Assembly: GCA_000702685.1 (NCBI GenBank)
Contig: JNJD01000012.1
Location: forward strand, 1 to 64,000
Source: Lachnospiraceae bacterium AC2028
Lineage (GTDB): Bacteria; Bacillota; Clostridia; Lachnospirales; Lachnospiraceae
Reading direction: 5' to 3'
Length of the DNA stretch: 64,000 nt
Shown: piece by piece, positions 32,165 through 44,170 of the stretch
Position numbering within the stretch: position 1 is the first letter of the stretch
Layout of the letters: each line of letters starts with the position of its first letter
Program-made: the position numbers and the translations under genes
The notes under the pieces: generated by a model
Seen by the model: only the letters and a program-made list of their open reading frames with translations
Told to the model about the DNA's origin: nothing
Databases searched by the model: none

Positions 32165-32584
32165 TTACGCTGCCTTATATGCCGCTATGTCTGCTTCTTT
32201 GGTAAGATCATACACCTTTCCGTGGTCATAATCTTCCTTGACATAGATCTCAACGGAATTGATATCCGCATCATATACAGCCATGAACGTTCCGCCGGGT
32301 GTGAATACATGTCCCGCTACGGTAGGCGTCTCGTTGATTGTTCCGGGAAGATAAGAGTTGTTGATCTCTATTTCAACGCTACTTGCACCGACCCTGGAGC
32401 CCTCCGCAATATCGGCAAGGAATGCCTCCCTTATCTGATCGGCTGTCTGAATATCCCTCGATCTTCTCGACTGCTCAACATACTTGAGGAAAAGCGGTGC
32501 CAGAACGGCAACCAGTACTGCCATGATGGCAATAACGATTATCAGTTCTACCAGCGAAAAACCTTGATTCCCTTTCTTTTTCAT
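32165..32584 (-). CDS. Type IV pilin-like protein (prepilin N-terminus)
   Basis: The 139-residue protein has a class III signal sequence: a short basic leader MKKKGNQG, cut before FSLVE, then a hydrophobic helix (LIIVIAIMAVLVAVLAPLF) with the conserved Glu at mature position 5. The rest looks like a small beta-rich pilin head. The start at 32584 has a GGGGAGGG site. No PilB, PilC, PilD or secretion genes are nearby, so it must use machinery encoded elsewhere. It lies 135 bases after the GT-C-like gene. Confidence 0.85.
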   Translation of the reverse strand: MKKKGNQGFSLVELIIVIAIMAVLVAVLAPLFLKYVEQSRRSRDIQTADQIREAFLADIAEGSRVGASSVEIEINNSYLPGTINETPTVAGHVFTPGGTFMAVYDADINSVEIYVKEDYDHGKVYDLTKEADIAAYKAA

Positions 32585-32719
32585 AATATACCCTCCCCTA
32601 GGTGTAAACAAGCGCGCATGATTGATCAGATCATACAACTTAAATTTACCCTTTTTTTACACCAAAAACAAGGGGGAAAAGCCCGTTTTTTGTGGCGTTT
32701 CCGAATTTTAAAGCAGTTT

Positions 32720-34324
32720 TTAGTCTTTGGGGGAAGATTTTTTCAAAGAGTTTACAAAAAAGCCTGCGCGGGAGGCTATTCCATCAAGGCAAAGAGGCAC
32801 CAAAACGGTCAGGCAGACAAAGAAAGGAAAAACATATCTGCACTGGTTTTCCCAGACCGCGAAAAACAGAACCCCTCCTATGCAGTAGATGAGCGAAAGC
32901 TGTGCGGAAACGGGGAGTTTTCCGCCCTTTTTGAACAAGTATCCCGCAGCCGCAAGGAAGGCACACAGATACACAAGAGTCTGATAATAGTTCGCGACCC
33001 ACTCCATCTGTGCATATCTGGCCCCGGTATAAAGGCTCAAAAGCCACCCCGGAGGATTCTCCGGATCACGTCCCGAATCAGCCTTCCAGACCGACGTGGT
33101 CCTTAATGCTTCAAATTCGGGAGCCGTCCATTCCTGTCTTATCTTGGTCGAAAAGAAATATCTGGCATAGGCCGGATTTTCCCTGAAAACGGCGATCCTT
33201 TCATTGAGATCTTTTTTTGCCACGGCAGAAGCAAGAGCAGCATCAAATCCGTTCTCTTCAAACGTTCCCTGGTTATATCTGTTGTAGCTGCCGGGTCTGT
33301 CCCCGGTCTCCTGAAGTCCCATGACCACCCAGCATATTGACGGAACACCGTCCACATTCCTGTAACCGGAAACTGATTCAAAATATTTTTCGATACAGAA
33401 GAACGTGCCCCATGCGGAGATGATCACGCACAGGCCGGCTATGGCAAAGCGCAGTTTTTTCTTTTTCACGCCTGCAAGAACAAGCACTATGAGTACCGCA
33501 GCGATGAAGATCCATATCTGCTTTCTGAGAAGCAACGCCATGGTGCAGGATATGCATAATCCCACGGCATCCCTGATGCGGTCCGTCTTTTCAAATCTGA
33601 CGAGAAAGTTCCCTGCAAGAAAAGATAACGCGATTGAGCCGAGATCTCCGTACATATACGGGATAAAAAGGTACATGGGGATGCAGGAAGCAATAAAGAT
33701 GCAGAAAACCATCCTTGCAAACGGAGATACTTTTTCCGTCTTAAGTATGGAATATCCGGCAAAGAGTACGATCTGCGGATAAATAAGATGCAGATACTGC
33801 GTGCAGACAAATGTATCGTCCCCGAACAGCTTATAAAGTATCATGTAAAAGACAACGAGTCCCTTTTGCTGGGGATAGATCCCCAGGTAACCGCCCGGCA
33901 TGAACATGAGATACCGAAGGTCGGAATCCTCCCATGTTGCATAAACGGCTCCGTAAAAAGTATTGATCTGGTCGCCGTCCATATAGTAGGGATGATCCTT
34001 AAGATAAAAGACTCCGAGAGCAAACATGAAAACGGAAGTAAGTCCCAGTATCACGGCGGCCACCCTGTCCTTACGCTTTACCTTCCTGTCGAATATCAGG
34101 CAAGCGATAACGGACAAAAGAAAGAACGCTCCCGCTGCGATCAGGTTCTTCACCGGGCTGTCCATAACATACATGCTCTCGCAGCCCATATAACTGCGAC
34201 AGTAAAAAGTACCCGTCATCGCATAATAAGCCAGAAGTCCGGTCAGAAGTGCGCCGATCACGAGCATGATCTTCAGCGCGAGATCTACCAGTATTGAATT
34301 GAGTTCTTTTTTATTCTTCGTCAT
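32720..34324 (-). CDS. Multi-pass membrane protein, GT-C glycosyltransferase-like
   Basis: The 534-residue protein has about 11 membrane segments, with a large soluble loop near residues 320-430. The first external loop contains YMDGDQINTFYGAVY, an acidic motif placed as in GT-C lipid-linked-sugar transferases. A segment FMPGGYLGIYPQQKG follows, also typical of such proteins. Acceptor and donor are unknown. Its start overlaps the stop of the LRR gene by one base (TGATG), which implies translational coupling. A non-enzymatic membrane protein is the alternative. Confidence 0.65.
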   Translation of the reverse strand: MTKNKKELNSILVDLALKIMLVIGALLTGLLAYYAMTGTFYCRSYMGCESMYVMDSPVKNLIAAGAFFLLSVIACLIFDRKVKRKDRVAAVILGLTSVFMFALGVFYLKDHPYYMDGDQINTFYGAVYATWEDSDLRYLMFMPGGYLGIYPQQKGLVVFYMILYKLFGDDTFVCTQYLHLIYPQIVLFAGYSILKTEKVSPFARMVFCIFIASCIPMYLFIPYMYGDLGSIALSFLAGNFLVRFEKTDRIRDAVGLCISCTMALLLRKQIWIFIAAVLIVLVLAGVKKKKLRFAIAGLCVIISAWGTFFCIEKYFESVSGYRNVDGVPSICWVVMGLQETGDRPGSYNRYNQGTFEENGFDAALASAVAKKDLNERIAVFRENPAYARYFFSTKIRQEWTAPEFEALRTTSVWKADSGRDPENPPGWLLSLYTGARYAQMEWVANYYQTLVYLCAFLAAAGYLFKKGGKLPVSAQLSLIYCIGGVLFFAVWENQCRYVFPFFVCLTVLVPLCLDGIASRAGFFVNSLKKSSPKD

Positions 34325-35199
34325 CAGATCTCAAGTCCGGAAAAAAATCTGTCAAAAGCTTCGGTTCCGGCATTCTTCATAAGGAGGCTCTTCAGCTCCT
34401 GTTTATCGTCGCCGAGGCTTTTCAGCATCGTGCGCCTGTTTCCGTCATCAACACAGCCGTATCTTTCAAGGATCTCAAAATGCGCTTTGTTGGGATAATT
34501 TTCCCTTACGGCAAGCCAGCTTTCATTGCCGTTTTCGGAGCCTTCCCTGTGACTGTATATATAGTCCGTAAATATTTTTTCGGCATCGCTGCGAAGTCCT
34601 TCCGGATGCAGGAGCCTCTGGATGCAGAGAGACGCCTTGATGACTCTCCGTCCGCTCTCATACGCTTCGCGGTCGCTCAGTCCGACCTCCTCTTCGCCGC
34701 AGAGTATCTGGTTCGTAAATCCCTCGTCGTCGGCCTGCTGAAGAAGCGATACGATCCAGGCATCGAAACGCGCGAACCATTCATCGTTAAGGCTTTCGAC
34801 ATCGGATATCCTGGCAGGTCCCGAAAATCTCACCGAAAGCGCAAACAGCGCGGCTTTGTCTTCCGACATTCCCGGAAAAGTCACCTTCTCCAGAGAGGTG
34901 CAGCCGGTGAATATCCCGTCACCCGCTTCGCACAGCGGCATATCAAGTTCCTTCAGATTACTGCAATGTGCAAATCCGAAATCACCCACGCTGCGTACCG
35001 ATGAAGGAACCGACAGTTTTCGAAGTGTCTTCCTTCCGAGAAACGCCTTCTTGCCTATCCCGACCAGGCGGATGCCTTCCTCCGGATATTCCGGAAGCGC
35101 AAGCGAAGTGAAACTCCCCTTGCAGATGCCGAGCACGGCTTCATTTCCCTTTATCGAATATACCAGGCTTCCTTCCGGATATTCAAATTCTTTATCCAA
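34324..35199 (-). CDS. BspA-type leucine-rich repeat protein
   Basis: The 291-residue protein has no signal peptide. Residues about 30-125 show three to four LRR_5-type repeats (IGKKAFLGRKTLRKLSVPSSV, then VGDFGFAHCSNLKELDMP, then IFTGCTSLEKVTFP). The C-terminal half is predicted helical, with no recognised fold. BspA-type repeats usually serve binding. The gene lies 20 bases after the MoxR ATPase gene and is fused by a one-base overlap to the GT-C-like gene, so it may be a cytoplasmic adaptor of this set. That role is inferred. Confidence 0.7.
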   Translation of the reverse strand: MDKEFEYPEGSLVYSIKGNEAVLGICKGSFTSLALPEYPEEGIRLVGIGKKAFLGRKTLRKLSVPSSVRSVGDFGFAHCSNLKELDMPLCEAGDGIFTGCTSLEKVTFPGMSEDKAALFALSVRFSGPARISDVESLNDEWFARFDAWIVSLLQQADDEGFTNQILCGEEEVGLSDREAYESGRRVIKASLCIQRLLHPEGLRSDAEKIFTDYIYSHREGSENGNESWLAVRENYPNKAHFEILERYGCVDDGNRRTMLKSLGDDKQELKSLLMKNAGTEAFDRFFSGLEI

Positions 35200-35219
35200 A
35201 CCATCCTCCGAAGAATATA

Positions 35220-36728
35220 TCAGATATCAAAACCGGCTATCTTCTGCTTAAGTTCCAGGCCTCTTTCGGAGATCTCCATATCTCCGGCCAGCTTCTCGTA
35301 ATCCTCATTTCCGAATGTGCCTATGAATCTCGACGACCATGTATCGGATGTGAGCCTTGTTGCGAGGATCATGGGTTCATTGCCTCCTTCACAGGCTTTC
35401 CTGACAAATGATATCAGATTTGAAAGCCTTGATGAAGCCTCCAGGGCATTTTCTTTCAGTTCCCCGACACGTTCAGAATAACCTGCAAGGCAGGGATGAG
35501 ATGAGCCGGGCTTCAGCTCCCGGTCAGATCCGTTAAGGCAGTGCCTGTAGAAATCAATCGCATAAGCGATGGAATTTTTACGATGCCTGCTCAGATTTCC
35601 GCGTTCCCGGAGGATCTTAAGACTGTTGTCCTGTGTCTCCAGGGCAGCCGAAAGAGTTCTGTATACCGCATCATTGTCCGAACCTCTTTCCACCATATCC
35701 TTTACAGCCTTTATGACCGGTGTGAGCAGCTGGACTCCGTCGGCAAGGACAAGCGTCTCCTTCATATCTGCGGATACCGATTCGATGAGCATTGAAAGAA
35801 CCGAAAGCCTTTCATCAAAGCCCGCATTCTTCATCTTCTCATAAATGCTTTCCGGTGCCTTTCCCTCAAGTATCTCCGCAATATGATAATCGGTCTTGTA
35901 CTTGATGTACAGATCGTAATAGGCAGCAAAATCCTTCGCCACTCTCTCGCTTCGAAGGTACTGGCTGATCAGGGTTTCATCAACGGCGATCCCTTCTTCC
36001 TCGCTGAGCTTCATCATCTCGGATAAGTCTTCCCAGCCTCTTGCCGTAACGTATGCCCTTCCTTCTGGAGACATTTCCATTACATAGAAATCTTCCTTCT
36101 TCACATCAAGGTAAGCGAGGATCGCACCGTGGATGCTTCTTTCACGTGCATAGTCCATCCACGCCTTGAGATCGGGCTCCACGCTGATCACCTTCATCCT
36201 GTCCAGAGTCGCAACGTCGAATTCCCTCACGGATCTGTTATATTCGGGAGGGTTTCCGGCAGTGACTATGACCCAGCCCTCCGGAAGGCAGTGGCGTCCG
36301 AATGTCTTGTACTGAAGGAACTGGAGCATCGAGGGGCCGAGCGTTTCCGAAACGCAGTTTATCTCATCAAGGAAAAGAATTCCTTCCCTCACATTCCTCT
36401 TATCGATTTCTTCATACACCGATGCTATGATCTCGCTCATCGTATATTCGGTTATCGTATAGTCCGATTCCCCGTAATGCTTCGTGGTTATATAGGGAAG
36501 TCCGAGCGCCGACTGCCTGGTATGATGAGTCATCGAATATGCGACAAACGAGATTCCCATTTCGGATGCGATCTGCTCCATTATCGCGGTCTTGCCTATG
36601 CCGGGTGCGCCGAGCATGAAGATGGGGCGCTGTCTCACCGTGGGAATGCAGTACTCCCCGTCCTTATCCTTCTTGAGATAAATACGCACCGTATCCTTTA
36701 TCACCTGTTTTGCGCTTGCTATGTTCAT
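35220..36728 (-). CDS. MoxR-type AAA+ ATPase
   Basis: The 502-residue ATPase has the Walker A motif GAPGIGKTA near residue 40, the Walker B stretch GILFLDEINCV, a sensor region TAGNPPEYN and a long C-terminal part. MoxR ATPases act with VWA-domain proteins as chaperone-like remodelling pairs. Here the partner gene overlaps directly: the start ATG lies within the stop of the DUF2201/VWA gene (four-base overlap). The C-terminal 250 residues are longer than in simple MoxR proteins. The substrate is unknown. Confidence 0.88.
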   Translation of the reverse strand: MNIASAKQVIKDTVRIYLKKDKDGEYCIPTVRQRPIFMLGAPGIGKTAIMEQIASEMGISFVAYSMTHHTRQSALGLPYITTKHYGESDYTITEYTMSEIIASVYEEIDKRNVREGILFLDEINCVSETLGPSMLQFLQYKTFGRHCLPEGWVIVTAGNPPEYNRSVREFDVATLDRMKVISVEPDLKAWMDYARERSIHGAILAYLDVKKEDFYVMEMSPEGRAYVTARGWEDLSEMMKLSEEEGIAVDETLISQYLRSERVAKDFAAYYDLYIKYKTDYHIAEILEGKAPESIYEKMKNAGFDERLSVLSMLIESVSADMKETLVLADGVQLLTPVIKAVKDMVERGSDNDAVYRTLSAALETQDNSLKILRERGNLSRHRKNSIAYAIDFYRHCLNGSDRELKPGSSHPCLAGYSERVGELKENALEASSRLSNLISFVRKACEGGNEPMILATRLTSDTWSSRFIGTFGNEDYEKLAGDMEISERGLELKQKIAGFDI

Positions 36729-38026
36729 TTCAGTTCATCCTCCTCAATGACTGCCTTCATGCTCCACGCGGGCGGAGCGGGGCGGGATGTGTCTTCGTTC
36801 AAAAATGCAAAAATGACATCAAAGTCAGGTTTCTTCTCGGGATATATTCCGTATCCGTCGGTAAAATATATAAGGCCTTTAAGATCATCGAATTCCCGAG
36901 CATCCTGCAGGGTCTTAACGTAATCGAACACCGGCCTGAAATCGGTTGCGCCTCCTCCGACCAGTTTCATACCTCCGAGAAAGCTTTCCAGCTGCGTTAT
37001 ATCGGTGATCTTATCATCCCTCCCGACTTCCGCATCACACTGGATGATATGTATATTGATCTTCCTGAAAAAGCTTTCGCTGCGCTTCAGAAGATCGAAC
37101 GTCTGTCTTATGAATTTCTTCACGGTCTCTCCGCTGCAGGAAGCGGATGTGTCTATCGCGATGACAAAATCCCTGATCCTTTTGTCTTCCCTGTATTCGA
37201 GAGGTTCTATCAGGGGCATGTTGTCATATTTTTCGAGTCCGTAAGTATAGTATATATAATCGAACTCATCGTCGCTGAGTTTTGTATGTTCGCCCGTGAC
37301 GACAAAGTGCTCGAGGATCCTCCTGTAATCATACTTTACCGCCGAGCCTTCGATAAGGTTCTTTTCAAGCGATTCTCCCGACGAGCCCTTTTTGGAAAAG
37401 CTCTTTATCTCCGCAAGCACCTGACGGGATATCTTCTTCCATTCCTCTTCGGTCATCTGCAGCTCGGGTGAAGCATCCGGTCTCCACAGCTCGTGGGAAT
37501 CACGTGCGAATGCTCTTTCGTACTCCATGACCCTCGAGGGAGTGAGCGGATTTTTTCTGAAATACCTGTAAAGACTTTCAGCGGAAAGCCTGCCGACATC
37601 TTCTCTCAAAACCTTAAGCATTCCGGCTGTTGCAAGATCCGTATCAAGCTTAATGCAGTCTTCATCCAGTTCGGCGATAACATTTTCAACGGCTATGTCA
37701 CAGGCAAGATCCCACAGGACACGGTCCGTCTTTTCACCCGCAAACGGGTGGGAGAAAATATGATGGAGTATGACATGGAAGATCGTTCTTGCGGGAAGCT
37801 TAAAATCACGCTGAGCGGCACGGATGATGTTTACCGGATCATATATGAACGATCCGATTCCCGAATAGATACCCCCGCATCCCGGCCTGGCCTCACTCTT
37901 AAGTTCCATAAGGCTTCTGTCCAGGAATCTGAAGGACATCATGATCTCATCCCTCGCAAGTTCTATTACCTTGGAGGAAAGTGACATGATCTCACTTACT
38001 TCGGTTTTCTTTTCAACATTATCCAT
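36725..38026 (-). CDS. DUF2201 / VWA-like protein, MoxR partner
   Basis: The 433-residue protein has an N-terminal predicted metallopeptidase-like helical domain, in which the usual HE..H pattern appears as HVILHHIFSH (about residues 83-92), and a C-terminal VWA-like domain with FVIAIDTSASCSG, a metal-ion-dependent adhesion motif (DTSAS). It is the first gene of the operon and overlaps the ATPase gene by four bases. Such pairs occur widely in Clostridia and their substrates are not known. The zinc-site change suggests the peptidase-like part may not be catalytic. Confidence 0.85.
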   Translation of the reverse strand: MDNVEKKTEVSEIMSLSSKVIELARDEIMMSFRFLDRSLMELKSEARPGCGGIYSGIGSFIYDPVNIIRAAQRDFKLPARTIFHVILHHIFSHPFAGEKTDRVLWDLACDIAVENVIAELDEDCIKLDTDLATAGMLKVLREDVGRLSAESLYRYFRKNPLTPSRVMEYERAFARDSHELWRPDASPELQMTEEEWKKISRQVLAEIKSFSKKGSSGESLEKNLIEGSAVKYDYRRILEHFVVTGEHTKLSDDEFDYIYYTYGLEKYDNMPLIEPLEYREDKRIRDFVIAIDTSASCSGETVKKFIRQTFDLLKRSESFFRKINIHIIQCDAEVGRDDKITDITQLESFLGGMKLVGGGATDFRPVFDYVKTLQDAREFDDLKGLIYFTDGYGIYPEKKPDFDVIFAFLNEDTSRPAPPAWSMKAVIEEDELK

Positions 38027-38054: not shown

Positions 38055-38081
38055 AACGGAACGCTTGCCGGGCGTTCCGTT
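38055..38081 (-). terminator. Terminator after the GGDEF-EAL gene
   Basis: Ten-base perfect arms (38055-38064 and 38072-38081) with a seven-base loop are followed on the minus strand by TTTTT. It lies only 28 bases before the start of the DUF2201 gene, so it could also act as an attenuator of that operon. Confidence 0.85.
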
Positions 38082-38101
38082 AAAGCATTCCTAAAGACAG
38101 T

Positions 38102-40459
38102 TCATTTTTCATCCTTCATATACTTTTCTTCAAATTCGGAAACCGGGATCGGCTTTGAAAAATAATAACCCTGGAACATCCGGCATCCGCACTCTTCGAG
38201 GAAGCCTTTCTGTTCCTCGGTCTCAACGCCTTCCGTGATAACGGAAAGTCCCATTTCAATGGCCATATTGATGACATTTGAAAGGATGATCGTTGACTTA
38301 AGATACGTATCGGCATCCTTGATATCGCGAAGGAAGAGCATATCGACCTTGAGGACATCAACGGGCAGATTCTTAAGCGTATTGAGTGAGGAATAGCCGC
38401 TTCCGAAATCGTCCATCTCTACAATGAATCCGTCGCTGCGAAGCTGTGCTATCACGCCGAGAACGGCATCCGAATTACCGATCATCGCAGTCTCTGTAAT
38501 CTCAAGCCTGAGCTGTTCGGGCCCGATACCGTACTTCCCCGCATATCCGGTTATATCTCCGTATACATCGGTAAAATAGAAATCCCTGGGTGAGATGTTT
38601 ACGGACAGATACATATCATCATGTCCCTCCTCATTCCACCTTCCGAGGATCCTGCACGCCGTCTCCCACATATACCGGTCGACCTTTACGATGAGTCCGG
38701 TCTTTTCAAGCACTCCTATGAATCTGCCCGGAGGAAGCATTCCTTTTGTCTTGTGGTTCCATCTGATAAGGCACTCACCGCCTTTTACGCTTCCGTCAGA
38801 TGATACCTGAGCCTGTATGAACGGAATTATCTCTCCGTCTTTCATTGCATCATCTATGCTTCCCGTCACCATCTGCTCCCAGAGTATGGATTCGCGTACG
38901 GAACCGTCATAGTAAGCAACGACCTTCTGCATATCGGATTTGATGCCGTCTATAGCAAGGAATGCCCTGTCAAATATCATCTGGCTGGTAAGATCGGAGG
39001 AATCGACATTGCAGACACCGACATGCATTGTGATCGGGTATTTATAATCCCCCCTGTCTATATAGAGTGATTTGCAGATCCTGGTGAACATTACGGGATC
39101 GAAATCGTCCTTCTTAAGAAAAATACCGAACCTGTCACCCGTGATGCGGCCCACGATGCATCCGGGACCCATCGCTTCCGCAAGTCTGGATGCAATGTCC
39201 TTAAGAACATCATCCGCCCTGTCGGTTCCGAACACTTCATTGATGCTCTTAAATCCGGTAATGTTCGTTACCACTCCGACATATTCCCTGCTGTCCTTGC
39301 GGGCAAGCTTCTCATCCGTGAGCCTGTACAAAGCCGAAACATTGTAAAGACCGGTGAGCGAATCATGCATTGCAAGGAATCTTTCCTTCTCAAGTTCTAC
39401 TTCTTCGTCCGTACGGTCCTTGATCTTGGCATAGAAGCCGCAGTATTCATGGCGGCTGTCATATACATCGCTCACCTCTATATCATAGATGGTATCAAGT
39501 CCCGTCTCTTCATCGGATACCCTGCGGACGGTGGAGAACGATCCGTTCATATCATCCTCATCTTCCGTCAGCTTTTTGAAGATATCGTATGCCTCACCGT
39601 AATCCTGATCTCCGATCCCGAACATATCGGCAAAGCTGTGATTGATGAACACGACTCTTCCGGTATTGTCGAAGAGAACTATGCCGCTTTCCGAAGATCT
39701 TATGGAAGCGGAAAGCAGGCTGTTGATAAGCGTGGCAGGTTTATAAAGAGTTGTGAAAAAGACTATCAGAAGACCCGTGATACCGTAACCGACAAGCGAT
39801 GCGTCAACGGGGCTTCTGGATACCATGACTCCAACATACCATACGGCAGTAACAAACAGAGATCCGGCAATGCAGTAATACTTCACCCAATAGATCGCAG
39901 CATAACGGCTTGCCTTCCAGACAAGGAATGCGATCCCGAGAAGGACGGCAAATGTACACATCGCTCCGTGGATATAGTAATACCACTGACCCGTCACACC
40001 GTAGAATACTCTGTCCATGATCATGGGATATGCCATCGGTGCGCCGATATCACCGGACATCTGCGAAAAATCCGCGGGATCAATTACACGGATCGTATAT
40101 ACATGGTGAAATCTGTAATTAAGCGCTACGGAGATACAATCGAGAAGGCAGAGAGTTCGGAACAGCATCGTATACCACTTCCGCCTGTACTGTACGCCGC
40201 AGTAGTACATTACGAACCTCAGCAGGAAAAAGAGCATCATATCCATCCCGATATAAAGGATCGTATATCCCATATCGGCAACTTCGTAATGCCTTGTCAT
40301 GGTGACACAGCCGTCGGCTATGAATGGTATGAAGGCGGCTACAAGAAAACACGTGATATATCCTTTATAAGGATTATCGCGTGTGCCTACCACAAAGATG
40401 CTTATCGCATACAGCACCATAAAGATTGTGAGAAGGATCATGAAGGTATATGAGATCAT
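38102..40459 (-). CDS. Membrane-bound cyclic-di-GMP phosphodiesterase (7TM-PAS-GGDEF-EAL)
   Basis: The 785-residue protein has an N-terminal membrane region of about seven helices (residues 1-240), like the histidine-kinase-type 7TM domain, then a PAS domain (SGIVLFDNTGRVVFINHSF), a GGDEF domain and an EAL domain. The GGDEF motif reads TGDRF, so diguanylate cyclase activity is unlikely. The EAL domain keeps the metal and catalytic residues: E in GECLIRW, N in VNISPR, E in EITETA, DD in DDFGSGYSS, K in LKVDM, E in EGVET and Q in MFQGYYF. It is therefore predicted to degrade cyclic-di-GMP. Confidence 0.92.
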   Translation of the reverse strand: MISYTFMILLTIFMVLYAISIFVVGTRDNPYKGYITCFLVAAFIPFIADGCVTMTRHYEVADMGYTILYIGMDMMLFFLLRFVMYYCGVQYRRKWYTMLFRTLCLLDCISVALNYRFHHVYTIRVIDPADFSQMSGDIGAPMAYPMIMDRVFYGVTGQWYYYIHGAMCTFAVLLGIAFLVWKASRYAAIYWVKYYCIAGSLFVTAVWYVGVMVSRSPVDASLVGYGITGLLIVFFTTLYKPATLINSLLSASIRSSESGIVLFDNTGRVVFINHSFADMFGIGDQDYGEAYDIFKKLTEDEDDMNGSFSTVRRVSDEETGLDTIYDIEVSDVYDSRHEYCGFYAKIKDRTDEEVELEKERFLAMHDSLTGLYNVSALYRLTDEKLARKDSREYVGVVTNITGFKSINEVFGTDRADDVLKDIASRLAEAMGPGCIVGRITGDRFGIFLKKDDFDPVMFTRICKSLYIDRGDYKYPITMHVGVCNVDSSDLTSQMIFDRAFLAIDGIKSDMQKVVAYYDGSVRESILWEQMVTGSIDDAMKDGEIIPFIQAQVSSDGSVKGGECLIRWNHKTKGMLPPGRFIGVLEKTGLIVKVDRYMWETACRILGRWNEEGHDDMYLSVNISPRDFYFTDVYGDITGYAGKYGIGPEQLRLEITETAMIGNSDAVLGVIAQLRSDGFIVEMDDFGSGYSSLNTLKNLPVDVLKVDMLFLRDIKDADTYLKSTIILSNVINMAIEMGLSVITEGVETEEQKGFLEECGCRMFQGYYFSKPIPVSEFEEKYMKDEK

Positions 40460-40567
40460 ACATTTCCCCGCCCCGTATATACTTATAATTTAGTCCAAAA
40501 CGGCTTTTTTTACAAGGATACGGGCATATTTAAAGCAATTAAAACATGATCTTACGAAAAAAATACA

Positions 40568-40592
40568 GCCCGCGGAAATCAGTTCCGCGGGC
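40568..40592 (-). terminator. Terminator of the chemotaxis receptor operon
   Basis: Ten-base GC-rich perfect arms (40568-40577 and 40583-40592) with a five-base loop are followed on the minus strand by TGTATTTTTTTCG. Confidence 0.88.
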
Positions 40593-40608
40593 CGGTTTAA
40601 ACAGTTCA

Positions 40609-42315
40609 TTATTTGAAGAATGCAACGATCTCTTTAAGATTATCTGCCTGGGCACTGACTCCCTTGATCCTCTCTGCGATCTCCCGGATGGCAGTGGCGA
40701 TGTTATCGGTGCTTGCGGAAACCTCGGCGTTGGATGCGGCATTCTCTTCGGATATGGCGGACAGATCGGAAACGTTGGCAACGATCCTCTCCTTGATATG
40801 CTTAAGGGATTCGGTCTTCTCATCGATCTCCTTGATGCCGTCAACCGATTCTACGATAGCTGCTTCGAGCTTTTCGAACTCTTCCTGTGCCTCTTCGATG
40901 GTAACCTGCTCGGCATTCATGGTCTCCATGATCTCGCCCGCAAGTCTTACCGAAACTTCCGAGTTGGAAAGGATCTCTTCTGCGATGGTCCTGATCGTGG
41001 ATGCACTGTTATTGGACTGCTCGGAAAGCTGTGAAATGGAATCCGCAACAACCGCAAACCCCCTTCCGGCTTCACCCGCTCTTGCAGCCTCGATGGATGC
41101 GTTAAGGCTGAGGAGCTTCGTCTGGCTTGCTATGTCAATGATGAGGTCGATCGCCTCGTTGACCTTGGCGATGGATTCATTCGTAAGGTTGATCTGTTTG
41201 TTGATGGTCTGTACGGCTTCAACACTTCCGCGGCTGGATTCCATTACATCCTTCATCTTGTCGGAAGCAAGACGGCTGATGTTCTTCATCGTGCCTGCGT
41301 TCTTGTTGAGGTTTTCAACATTGCCGCCGATCTCGGATACGGTAGCATCCATATCGGCCGCATGGGAATTAACTTCCTGGACATTCTCCGCCATGTTCTG
41401 TGCGGTGAGCGAAAGTTCGCCTACCGCTGTGGAGATCTGTGCCGCTCCGGTTGCGGAAGAATCGGAAAGGGACATAACCTCACTTGCATCCTCGCCGAGG
41501 GCATCTGCGGAATCCTTGATCTTGGCAACGGTATCCTGAAGCACTGCCTTCATTCCGCCGATCGCGGTGATCATGTTGATATTCTCGGTTATGCCGGAAT
41601 GAGCAGAAGCATCGGATGAGATATCACCGGTTGCCATTCTTTCCATATCTTCGCTTATCATACCGGGTGCTCTTCTGACATAAACCGCAAGGATAAAGAT
41701 CAGGACTGCGAAGAATACGAACAGGATAACAGCTATGATTATCAGGGGGGTGGTAACCGATAGAATTGCCGAGCTTACGGTATCGGCAGGCTCACCGACA
41801 AAGGTCATGCCTATGATACGGCCGTCGGTGGTGTATATGGGCTGATAGTCAACGTAGTACTGCTTGCCGTTGATCATGACACCGTCGGACTGGTAATGCT
41901 GTCCGCCGTTCAGGCATGCTGCGATGACAGCATCGGATGCCTTGGTGCCCTCAAGTCTTTCATTCGTCTTCGAATCCCTGAGATTCGTAACGGCACGGGT
42001 ATCACCCATGAAGATCGTAAGTCCGAGATTCTCGGATGTATATGAATCAACGAATGTGTGATCCGCATCTTCGGTCAGGAAAATTCCCTCTCCCGCGTTG
42101 GCAATGACATCCTCTACGTAATGGTTAAATGCCATGTTCGTGGCATTGAGCCTGTCGTATACGGACTCCTCCATGGATTGCTTGGTCCTCGACGCACTTA
42201 CAAAAGTCTCAATGAGGATTGCAGTGATGATGGGAACCATTCCGAAGAGCATGAGCATCTTCAGAAAGTCGAAGCCTCCCTTCTTCATGCCGGTTGATTT
42301 GACATTGTTAGCCAT
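40609..42315 (-). CDS. Methyl-accepting chemotaxis protein 1 (single Cache sensor)
   Basis: The 568-residue receptor has two membrane segments (about residues 20-42 and 186-212), an external domain of about 145 residues with a Cache-like pattern ([22 protein letters not shown]), and a cytoplasmic signalling helix bundle with the hairpin tip [18 protein letters not shown] that contacts CheA and CheW. The first membrane segment follows a basic stretch (MKKGG). It lies 30 bases after receptor 2 and is followed by a terminator. The ligand is not known. Confidence 0.93.
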
Positions 42316-42345
42316 ATTCTCCCTCCCTGAAATAATATGAACCGA

Positions 42346-44106
42346 TTAAATTGTAAACATACTGACGTTATCCCTGAGTTCGTCCGCAACCACTGAAAGT
42401 GCTTCGGTCTGCTTAACGACACTTTCCATGTTTTCATCAAGCAGCGTAAGGGATGCTGAGGTTTCCTCGGTCGATGCGGCATTTTCTTCCGATACCGAGG
42501 AAAGGGATTCTACTGATTCCATGATCGACTTCTTATCGTTATCGAGCGTCTGTACAAGATCGAGAATCTGCTTGTTGCCCTCCTCGGTCTCACGGAGCAT
42601 GCCTAGCATGGTTTCAAACGAATCGCTCATCGATCCGAGTGCAGTGCTTTCGGCTTCGGTCGCATTCCTGATGTCCTCGGTAAGGGACTTGTTACGGTCG
42701 GAAAGACCGGTGATCGTCTTGAGCATTCCGGTGATCTCGTTAGCGGCACCGTTGGACTCTTCGGCAAGATTCTTGATATTGTCCGCAACAACCGCGAAAC
42801 CCTTGCCGGCCTCACCGGCTCTTGCAGCTTCGATCGATGCGTTAAGTGCAAGCAGATTGGTCTGATTAGCGATGGAAATGATCAGTTCCGCAGCCTGATT
42901 GATCTGCTCCACAACAGTTGCGGTCTCGCCCACGGATTTGGCAACCTGGTCTGCCTTTTCCCTGGTGTTGGCACCGGACTTCATCAGATCTCCGAGTTCG
43001 CCCTGAACCTTGGATGACTCTTCCATAACGGCACGTCCGTTCTCAAGATTCGAGGTCGCGGCATCAAGTACAGTCTCAACCGCATTTCCAATATTGACGG
43101 TGATGTCAGCTGTGGACTGAACATCCGTAGCCATAGCCATGGCACCGTTAGAAAGTTCGGAAACAGCCTGATTGATATCCGCGATCGCTCTCTGGCTGTC
43201 CGTGATCCTCTCCTGGGATTCGGAAGCTCCGGTTTCAACGCTGTGAGCGTTTTCAACGATCTTGCCGATGGCATCACGCAGACTCTGTCTCATGTTCTCT
43301 GCGGAAGCAGCCATATGCCTGAATTCTCTTACGGGAGATTCAACCTCAAGAGGAGTTGCAAAATCGCCCTTGGACATATTGTCAATGGAAGCTCCGACTC
43401 TCTTGACACCGTCTGTAAGTGCCTTGGCGGTGATGATGACAAGTACATAGAGGAGAACAACTATTACGGCAAAAAGAATGCTCAGGGTAACAACCTTGCC
43501 GTTGATAGCTTTCTTGGCGATGGTCTTCTCGGCATCGGCCCAGGATTCCACCACATCCGTCATATCGGAGATGCCGCCTCTGGCTATCTCGAAATCTTCG
43601 TTGAAAGCGGTAATATCACCTTCGTTGGTAACGAAATTATATGTTGCAAGCCATGCATCGTAATTAACCCGGAACTCGTCATACGCATCGCGGAAAGATT
43701 TTCCTTCCACAAGAGTTCCGGTATAAAGCGACTCATCCTGGGCCGCTATCGCAGCAGCTGCATCTATCCTTTCAAGGGTCTGTCCGAGATTTTCTTCCCA
43801 TGCGGCAAGCCTTATGGCATAGAGCATCTCCATTACATCGGGAGGAAGATTTCCGTCCGACTGTGAAATGCTTATATACTGCTGTGCGGCATTCATTGCC
43901 TGATACAGATCCCTGTCCGCATTAAGGAGATTGCTGTTAACCTGATAAAGGTTATCGTAGAAAAGAGATTCCGCCTCATTGTAGGTTCCGTACATCTCCT
44001 TGCCCATCATTACAAGCGTGATGATAATGCAGATGACCGCAGGAAGTACAAGAAGCTGCAGAGCGACCATGAAAGTCATGTTGGACTTCGAGAATAGTTT
44101 CTTCAT
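42346..44106 (-). CDS. Methyl-accepting chemotaxis protein 2 (four-helix-bundle sensor)
   Basis: The start is the ATG at 44106 (MKKLFSKSN) behind GAGGGGAACGG; a longer frame upstream lacks such a site. The 586-residue receptor has membrane segments at about residues 12-33 and 210-232, an all-helical external domain of about 170 residues rich in Ala, Asn and Tyr, a HAMP-like region and a signalling domain with [18 protein letters not shown]. The helical sensor differs from the Cache domains of the other two receptors. It has its own promoter at 44171-44199. Confidence 0.92.
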
Positions 44107-44170
44107 ACCGTTCCCCTCTCTCATAAAAAACTGATATGACATGTATTATATTATGTTGGATAATGCAAAT

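Follow-up and report, generated by a model that had tools for sequence, protein, structure and literature searches.

A conserved VWA-MoxR-LRR gene triplet of gut clostridia suggests an undescribed protein-remodelling machine

We analysed a stretch of 64,000 nucleotides from Lachnospiraceae bacterium AC2028 (contig JNJD01000012.1, positions 1 to 64,000; hereafter the window), in which four neighbouring genes encode a DUF2201 protein with a von Willebrand factor A (VWA) domain, a MoxR-type AAA+ ATPase, a leucine-rich repeat (LRR) protein, and a multi-spanning membrane protein (Table 1). The VWA, MoxR, and LRR genes are conserved together across many gut clostridia, which suggests that they encode an undescribed protein-remodelling machine, and the membrane gene proved to be a local addition. 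The VWA and MoxR genes overlap by four bases, 20 bases separate the MoxR gene from the LRR gene, and the LRR and membrane genes have a single base in common (TGATG); the four open reading frames (ORFs), their coordinates, and these junctions are all as given in an earlier reading of this DNA (the original prediction). A hydropathy scan found eight strongly hydrophobic segments in the membrane protein and none in the other three, which for that reason are taken to be cytosolic.

Table 1. Genes and motifs of the locus, in window coordinates.
Feature	Coordinates	Strand	Remarks
VWA protein (C-terminal DUF2201 VWA domain; putative-metallopeptidase-like DUF2201_N N-terminus)	36725..38026	minus	433 aa; core
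MoxR-type AAA+ ATPase	35220..36728	minus	502 aa; core
LRR_5 protein with helical C-terminal domain	34324..35199	minus	291 aa, TTG start; core third component
Multi-spanning membrane protein (GT-C/DUF2142-like)	32720..34324	minus	534 aa; accessory, not core
H84-x3-H88-x4-H93 motif	37748..37777	minus	VWA protein; HExxH glutamate is Val here (HVILH)
MIDAS DxSxS motif D292-S296, completed by T361 and D390	37139..37153	minus	VWA protein
Invariant G168-E169-E170 (LCGEED loop)	34690..34698	minus	window-type LRR protein
C-terminal tail L-E-I-COOH (hydrophobic-acidic-hydrophobic end)	34327..34335	minus	LRR protein

The recurrence of the triplet was followed in several genome samples, with locus counts taken from six-frame searches. 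Among 59 related genomes searched with the LRR protein, two genera, the source genus and one other, have LRR relatives next to MoxR. A scan of named genomes with a MoxR alignment, which was built from LRR-selected loci and was also used for the genus sample below, returned at least 446 relatives, and we kept the best 80 loci, most of them with Lachnospiraceae titles and some from genomes that also occur in the related set. The order VWA-MoxR-LRR is present in 65 of these best 80 MoxR-selected loci, four further loci have the LRR gene but the VWA gene was not found or the contig ends, and a strong LRR match adjoins MoxR in 69 of the 80. The rest comprise two loci with a weak LRR match, seven VWA-MoxR pairs without an adjacent LRR gene, one contig edge, and one locus with neither partner. 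Leaving out the contig-edge case, 10 of these genomes have no adjacent LRR match or a weak one, and seven of the 10 encode the helical domain of the LRR protein elsewhere, once about 5 kb downstream.

We then took one genome from each of 199 genera of Lachnospiraceae. MoxR was found in 109 genera, VWA in 110, and both in 109, so that every MoxR-positive genus also has the VWA partner; MoxR is single-copy in 93 of the 109 at the threshold used. The sole genus with a VWA match and no MoxR match at these thresholds is G551 (C38:64315-65286). The helical domain of the window-type LRR protein gave strong matches (E below 1e-20) in 22 of the 199 genera and weak, partial ones in 11 more, both thresholds having been chosen in this analysis. 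All 33 of these genera have MoxR (Fisher p 8e-7 for the 22, kinship ignored), and the weak matches directly adjoin the VWA-MoxR pair, with the gene order swapped in most of them such that the LRR gene is upstream of VWA. Set C was drawn for the most part from genera lacking a strong LRR-domain hit, and the remaining 54 MoxR-positive genera were then added so that all 109 were covered; two loci with unlinked LRR genes (L189 and L191) were left out of the counts. On this basis an adjacent LRR gene on the same strand is present in 88 of the 109 MoxR-positive genera, with 16 of the 22 strong genera judged by match coordinates alone and without the 500-base adjacency rule. It lies upstream of VWA more often than downstream of MoxR, and one locus (L170) has the order LRR-MoxR-VWA. 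Three further genera have an LRR gene within about 7 kb (L176, partial; L226, directly before VWA; G094, an LRR_5 hit), and four have no room on the contig for one.

The join extends beyond the family. In a class-wide sample, this MoxR was found in 24 of 391 genomes, 11 of them outside Lachnospiraceae, and an LRR gene adjoins the pair in nine of these 11 loci from other clostridial families; six further Lachnospiraceae loci of the same sample comprise four with an adjacent LRR gene, one with the gene 1.2 kb upstream, and one with none in the region. LRR_5 hits number from one to 36 per genome (12 genomes), and many of them are repeats inside one large gene; the only hit of G571 is the gene beside the pair, and the only one of G344 is an unlinked relative. 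Because LRR_5 genes are so few, the adjacency in 88 of 109 genera cannot be put down to luck, and chance falls far short of explaining why the three soluble genes are linked. The joining of a MoxR-DUF2201 pair to an LRR protein, which had been proposed from the window, is thus borne out across Lachnospiraceae and other clostridial families, and what recurs there is the three-gene order; the four-gene order, on whose recurrence the original prediction had staked itself, was not seen outside the source genus. Some loci depart from the common layout in other ways. Two large ORFs matching the LRR profile (913 and 987 aa) lie directly upstream of MoxR, in the usual place of VWA, in L116:238-5967, and in a locus from another clostridial family (L195:3417-8414) two LRR proteins flank the VWA gene, one on each side. 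Three loci have a gene between VWA and MoxR (L051:6566-7375, L052:7186-8004, and L055:4036-4854), and the copy in L051 is an alpha/beta hydrolase according to Pfam.

The membrane gene has a different distribution. Its best Pfam match is DUF2142, a family of the glycosyltransferase C (GT-C) clan, at 24.5 bits (E 1.4e-5) and below the cut-off of 30.1, so that "GT-C-like" is a lead rather than a demonstrated family. The gene was found in eight of 28 loci including the window, a set chosen by the LRR protein and therefore biased toward it, and in three of the best 80 MoxR-selected loci, all from the source genus. Across 31 genomes of that genus, many of them incomplete assemblies, eight have a close homologue, always beside the triplet, 16 more have weaker relatives elsewhere, and seven have none. 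The profile of the protein gave no match in the 109 further loci from other genera. In a sister genome (G001) with an intact triplet, abutting remnants match residues 1-24 (E 0.17) and 488-516 (E 1e-6) of the membrane protein, and we read these as a probable deletion inside the gene. Linkage of the fourth gene is thus local, and a four-gene system as a rule was rejected.

The window MoxR matches AAA_5 in Pfam (33.4 bits, cut-off 22), while the bpMoxR model stayed below its cut-off. Residues G40, P42-T47, D121-E122, N159, and R177 are invariant in 16 MoxR sequences, and they include what we take to be the Walker A (P42-T47) and Walker B (D121-E122) motifs; the conserved residues for nucleotide binding and hydrolysis of AAA+ proteins are therefore present. 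Profile searches of the PDB with the MoxR, VWA, and GT-C-like alignments gave no match at the thresholds used. The VWA protein matches DUF2201 (PF09967; 42.2 bits, cut-off 26.4), and its AlphaFold model is of moderate quality (predicted local distance difference test score, pLDDT, 77; predicted template modelling score 0.54). In this model, residues 283-433 match VWA and integrin I folds with Z of 12.9-14.7 among the matches listed, which barely test the N-domain, and the Foldseek matches include the MDN1-MIDAS complex. All five residues of the metal ion-dependent adhesion site (MIDAS) are kept in 90 of 90 VWA sequences, and each position is kept in 108 or 109 of the 109 further loci.

The N-terminus of the VWA protein resembles the putative metallopeptidase domain DUF2201_N (PF13203), at 18.5 bits in the window and thus below the cut-off of 23.2. 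Among sequences with letters at these positions, H84 and H88 are kept in 89 of 89 and H93 in 88 of 89, and the HExxH glutamate is present in only six of 89; in the 109 further VWA segments, HExxH occurs anywhere in four and the histidines are kept in at least 104. The three histidines and D110 are therefore nearly invariant, even though the peptidase glutamate has mostly been lost, and most members of the family cannot be ordinary HExxH peptidases as a result. We rejected a DUF2201_N metallopeptidase as the identity of the window protein, which lacks the catalytic glutamate along with 83 of 89 relatives, and the N-domain may instead have a metal-binding or scaffold role. A pseudo-peptidase-like VWA partner of this kind, with the glutamate lost and the histidines kept, is widespread.

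The LRR protein matches LRR_5 (40.6 bits, cut-off 27.7), and its AlphaFold model (mean pLDDT 92.3) has strands and LRRs to about residue 110, followed by a helical domain. The LRR part superimposes on the BspA-type protein TpLRR (6mlx) with Z 17.6 and a root-mean-square deviation of 1.6 over 105 residues, the VIA-align matches listed covering residues 1-132 and barely testing the helical part; matches of that part to Protein A were judged to be composition artefacts. In the window and in most of eight relatives, the third component gave only LRR-type matches, with no specific VMAP or TERNS3 models sought. Its length ranges from about 270 to over 800 residues. The helical domains of the window-type LRR protein and of the type encoded upstream of VWA are homologous (hhalign probability 96.8, E 2.2e-10), and in one locus (L199:1122-3467) the helical domain precedes most of a long LRR array, such that the domain order differs. 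Two short features of the LRR proteins stand out. In the window type, G168-E169-E170 of the LCGEED loop is invariant in 81 of 81 aligned proteins, within a region (residues 161-180) of mean pLDDT 71-74, and a different stretch is conserved in the upstream type. A hydrophobic-x-hydrophobic C-terminal tail is present in 113 of 132 LRR proteins compared to 116 of 854 other ORFs, and one with an acidic middle residue in 72 of 132 compared to 16 of 854, counts that treat related sequences as independent, so that their p-values do not serve as probabilities, against a background that may include non-genes (recurrent ORFs: 9/390). The tail is shared by 54 of 93 close MoxR relatives and seven of 53 distant ones, and the MoxR side of this observation is local.

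The best evidence on how these proteins may interact comes from natural fusions. Six loci without an LRR gene encode a VWA protein whose first 100 or so residues are similar to the LRR protein's helical domain, with scores of 31-37 bits in L228, L243, and L254, 20-24 bits in L222 and L216, and a weak 13 bits in L251. When aligned together, these six N-termini match the helical domain of the upstream type (hhalign probability 97.7, E 2.5e-12) and less closely that of the window type (probability 51.9, E 1.5e-4), and no such match was found among 153 ordinary VWA proteins. As fused genes usually work together physically, the helical domain probably docks on the VWA protein in the unfused systems.

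Other genes near the triplet offer little consistency. In close relatives it is followed by UDP-sugar pyrophosphorylase-like and GalE-like genes (named by eye), which were considered as clients and rejected as local synteny: of 162 loci, 31 and 26 have them, every one belonging to sets A and B (the closer relatives), and they are absent from the 55 loci that make up sets C and D. Among the top 32 clusters listed, two small ones span the sets, with eight loci each (451 and 284 aa). In sub-lineages or single loci, the triplet has an ABC-type ATPase, a methyltransferase, rpL13/rpS9, an alpha/beta hydrolase, a Na+/solute symporter, or two-component genes in its vicinity. A link to sporulation was also considered, as SpoIVA is present in 79 of 109 MoxR-positive and 52 of 90 MoxR-negative genera (Fisher p 0.036, kinship ignored; one sub-cut-off genome, G500, was dropped from the list), but it is weak; the source genome shows no SpoIVA and yet has the triplet. 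In the window itself, a prepilin-like protein (N_methyl) follows the membrane gene at 32165-32638 and recurs in near relatives only, and a GGDEF-EAL protein and two chemoreceptor-like proteins (the latter named by eye) are encoded upstream of the operon at 38102-44142, in a unit that may end at a hairpin at about 38056-38082 that was seen by eye and not flagged by the scan.

Taken together, we consider it reasonably probable that the triplet forms a single ATP-driven protein-remodelling machine, with the LRR protein as its dedicated adaptor, docked on the VWA protein. MoxR would form an AAA+ ring and act as the motor, and the VWA protein would plug onto this ring and transmit force through its MIDAS-bearing domain as a lever. 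The LRR protein, to which we assign the adaptor role because of the fusions and the variable length of the third component, would attach to the VWA protein through its helical C-terminal domain and recognise the client with its LRR solenoid. The client is probably not encoded near the triplet, as the commonest other neighbours stay within close relatives. The physical complex, the assembly of the ring, and the direction of force are likewise what we infer from these comparisons. Two finer and less certain contacts can be proposed: E169 or E170 of the LRR protein may supply the sixth ligand of the MIDAS metal, as the glutamates of Ytm1 and Rsa4 do for Rea1, and the conserved hydrophobic tail of the LRR protein may bind the AAA+ ring in the manner of the NorD C-terminus. 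A clostridial MoxR machine with an LRR receptor in this full sense, in which a solenoid of variable length picks the clients, the helical domain joins this solenoid to the VWA lever, and the acidic loop and tail hand the client to the ring, is put forward tentatively, as a reading somewhat less likely than not.

Several observations weigh against the proposed adaptor machine. An LCGEED-like motif is present in only two of 48 other third components, which weakens the proposed MIDAS ligand. The LRR gene is distant or on a different contig in three of the 109 genera, and 11 more have no same-strand LRR gene despite room on at least one side. Six of these 11 have the fusion (L251 weakly so), and VWA proteins fused in this way without an adjacent LRR gene suggest that the solenoid is dispensable in some lineages; in one of the 11 (L227) the pair adjoins an LRR gene of the opposite strand, and L218, L229, L253, and L256 have neither an LRR gene nor a fusion, with a weak partial match upstream in L253. 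In G482 (C6:8006-19539), MoxR and LRR are adjacent and the VWA match is about 8 kb downstream. Two loci of the other clostridial families (L200 and L201) lack the LRR gene, with low MoxR scores (355 and 361 bits) and, in L200, a contig end that cuts the locus.

A different role for the LRR protein would be that of the client, which the MoxR-VWA pair activates, unfolds, or releases to act elsewhere. Neighbouring clients are known from other MoxR systems, the LRR gene is unlinked in some genomes, and the conserved tail of the LRR protein looks like something a motor could take hold of. The norQ and norD genes, according to the parts of the reports drawn on here, lie in the operon of their client cNOR (PMC13036017, PMC9976466). 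A client is not expected inside its own remodeller, however, and the helical domain is fused to VWA in several lineages with no LRR gene beside it, and we consider this role unlikely. The four-gene machine of the original prediction, which would insert or activate a membrane glycosyltransferase for a surface glycan, could point to the one-base overlap of the LRR and membrane genes, seen in the window and in L032, and to the sugar-nucleotide genes that follow in close relatives. Its membrane component, however, adjoins the triplet in eight of the 31 genomes of the source genus, persists as remnants in G001, and gave no profile match in 109 loci outside that genus; membership of the membrane gene in the system is not supported, nor in consequence is the sugar-transferase function, and we regard this explanation as very improbable indeed.

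The remaining two explanations concern what the machine would act on. It might be an anti-invader conflict system like the MoxR-vWA ternary ones, in which the LRR protein would sense the invader. The wide length range of the third component would suit this role, and the published ternary systems are, in the portions of the two studies consulted, predicted conflict systems with a system-specific third component (PMC7159879, PMC8195603). Against this, PADLOC gave only weak matches for the four window proteins, all to the MoxR ATPase (best E 0.00085), and neither it nor Pfam showed an effector domain or effector-associated domain (EAD) in them, although such scans can miss them; the single-copy state of MoxR in most genera and the ordinary genes that flank some relatives (rpL13, rpS9, an ABC ATPase) also argue for a different role, and a conflict system seems improbable to us. 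Alternatively, the H-x3-H-x4-H site of the VWA protein might carry a metal for an enzyme that the LRR protein recognises as its target. The near-invariance of the histidines and D110 in the face of the lost peptidase glutamate would be in keeping with such a function, and NorQD inserts iron, as stated in the sections of the reports used here (PMC13036017, PMC9976466). But no conserved metalloenzyme or metal transporter was seen among those neighbour families, a part of the whole, that were scanned with Pfam, and we see little prospect that metal handling is the function.

MoxR-VWA machines are widespread, and to our knowledge few of them have known clients. The adaptor hypothesis proposed here is concrete in that it concerns three soluble proteins, and the LRR protein, used as bait, would offer a way to identify what an orphan MoxR machine acts on. 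About half of the genera sampled from this large gut and rumen family have kept the third component, through changes of order, unlinking, and natural fusion. We found no description of the VWA-MoxR-LRR triplet in the open-licence literature, which is narrower than the literature as a whole, and to that extent the suggestion that the LRR-joined pair is undescribed stands.

Several known systems share parts of this architecture. The LRR part of the window protein resembles BspA-type LRR_5 proteins (6mlx TpLRR, 4oju, and 4gt6), several of which are titled surface proteins in their structure entries, but the window protein has no hydrophobic segment and has an added helical domain. The ternary conflict systems, as presented in the pages consulted, likewise have the genes for MoxR, vWA, and a conserved third partner close together, with VMAP, iSTAND, FtsH, beta-propeller, iSTAND2, and TERNS3 printed as third components (PMC7159879, PMC8195603). 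LRR appears in the main text of the first study only as LRRK2 in a reference, and in other contexts in the available part of the second. The third component of the triplet is in contrast an LRR_5 protein with a helical domain, with no effector or EAD seen in the scans. NorQ and NorD, the best described of the MoxR-VWA pairs considered here, are similar in having a MoxR ring with a MIDAS-bearing VWA partner, and in the excerpts used here a finger of the VWA protein enters the ring while its C-terminus holds it, and a MIDAS mutation spares ring binding and abolishes activity on the target, whose acidic residues are likely MIDAS ligands (PMC13036017, PMC9976466). They differ in that no LRR component is described in these excerpts, NorD is proposed to bind its own client, and that client, cNOR, has been identified. 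The nearest eukaryotic parallel is Rea1 (midasin), which has been placed in the MoxR clade (PMC7159879, in the portion consulted) and, in the part of the work cited, is an AAA+ motor with a MIDAS that grips glutamates of the assembly factors Ytm1 and Rsa4 (PMC6624252), an acidic contact that for the triplet is only proposed. Rea1 differs in being a single giant eukaryotic chain, and its ligands carry ubiquitin-like (UBL) domains and not LRRs. WD40 domains are also found in these ligands. The LRR-receptor machine, if real, would represent a bacterial equivalent of Rea1 with separable repeat-domain adaptors.

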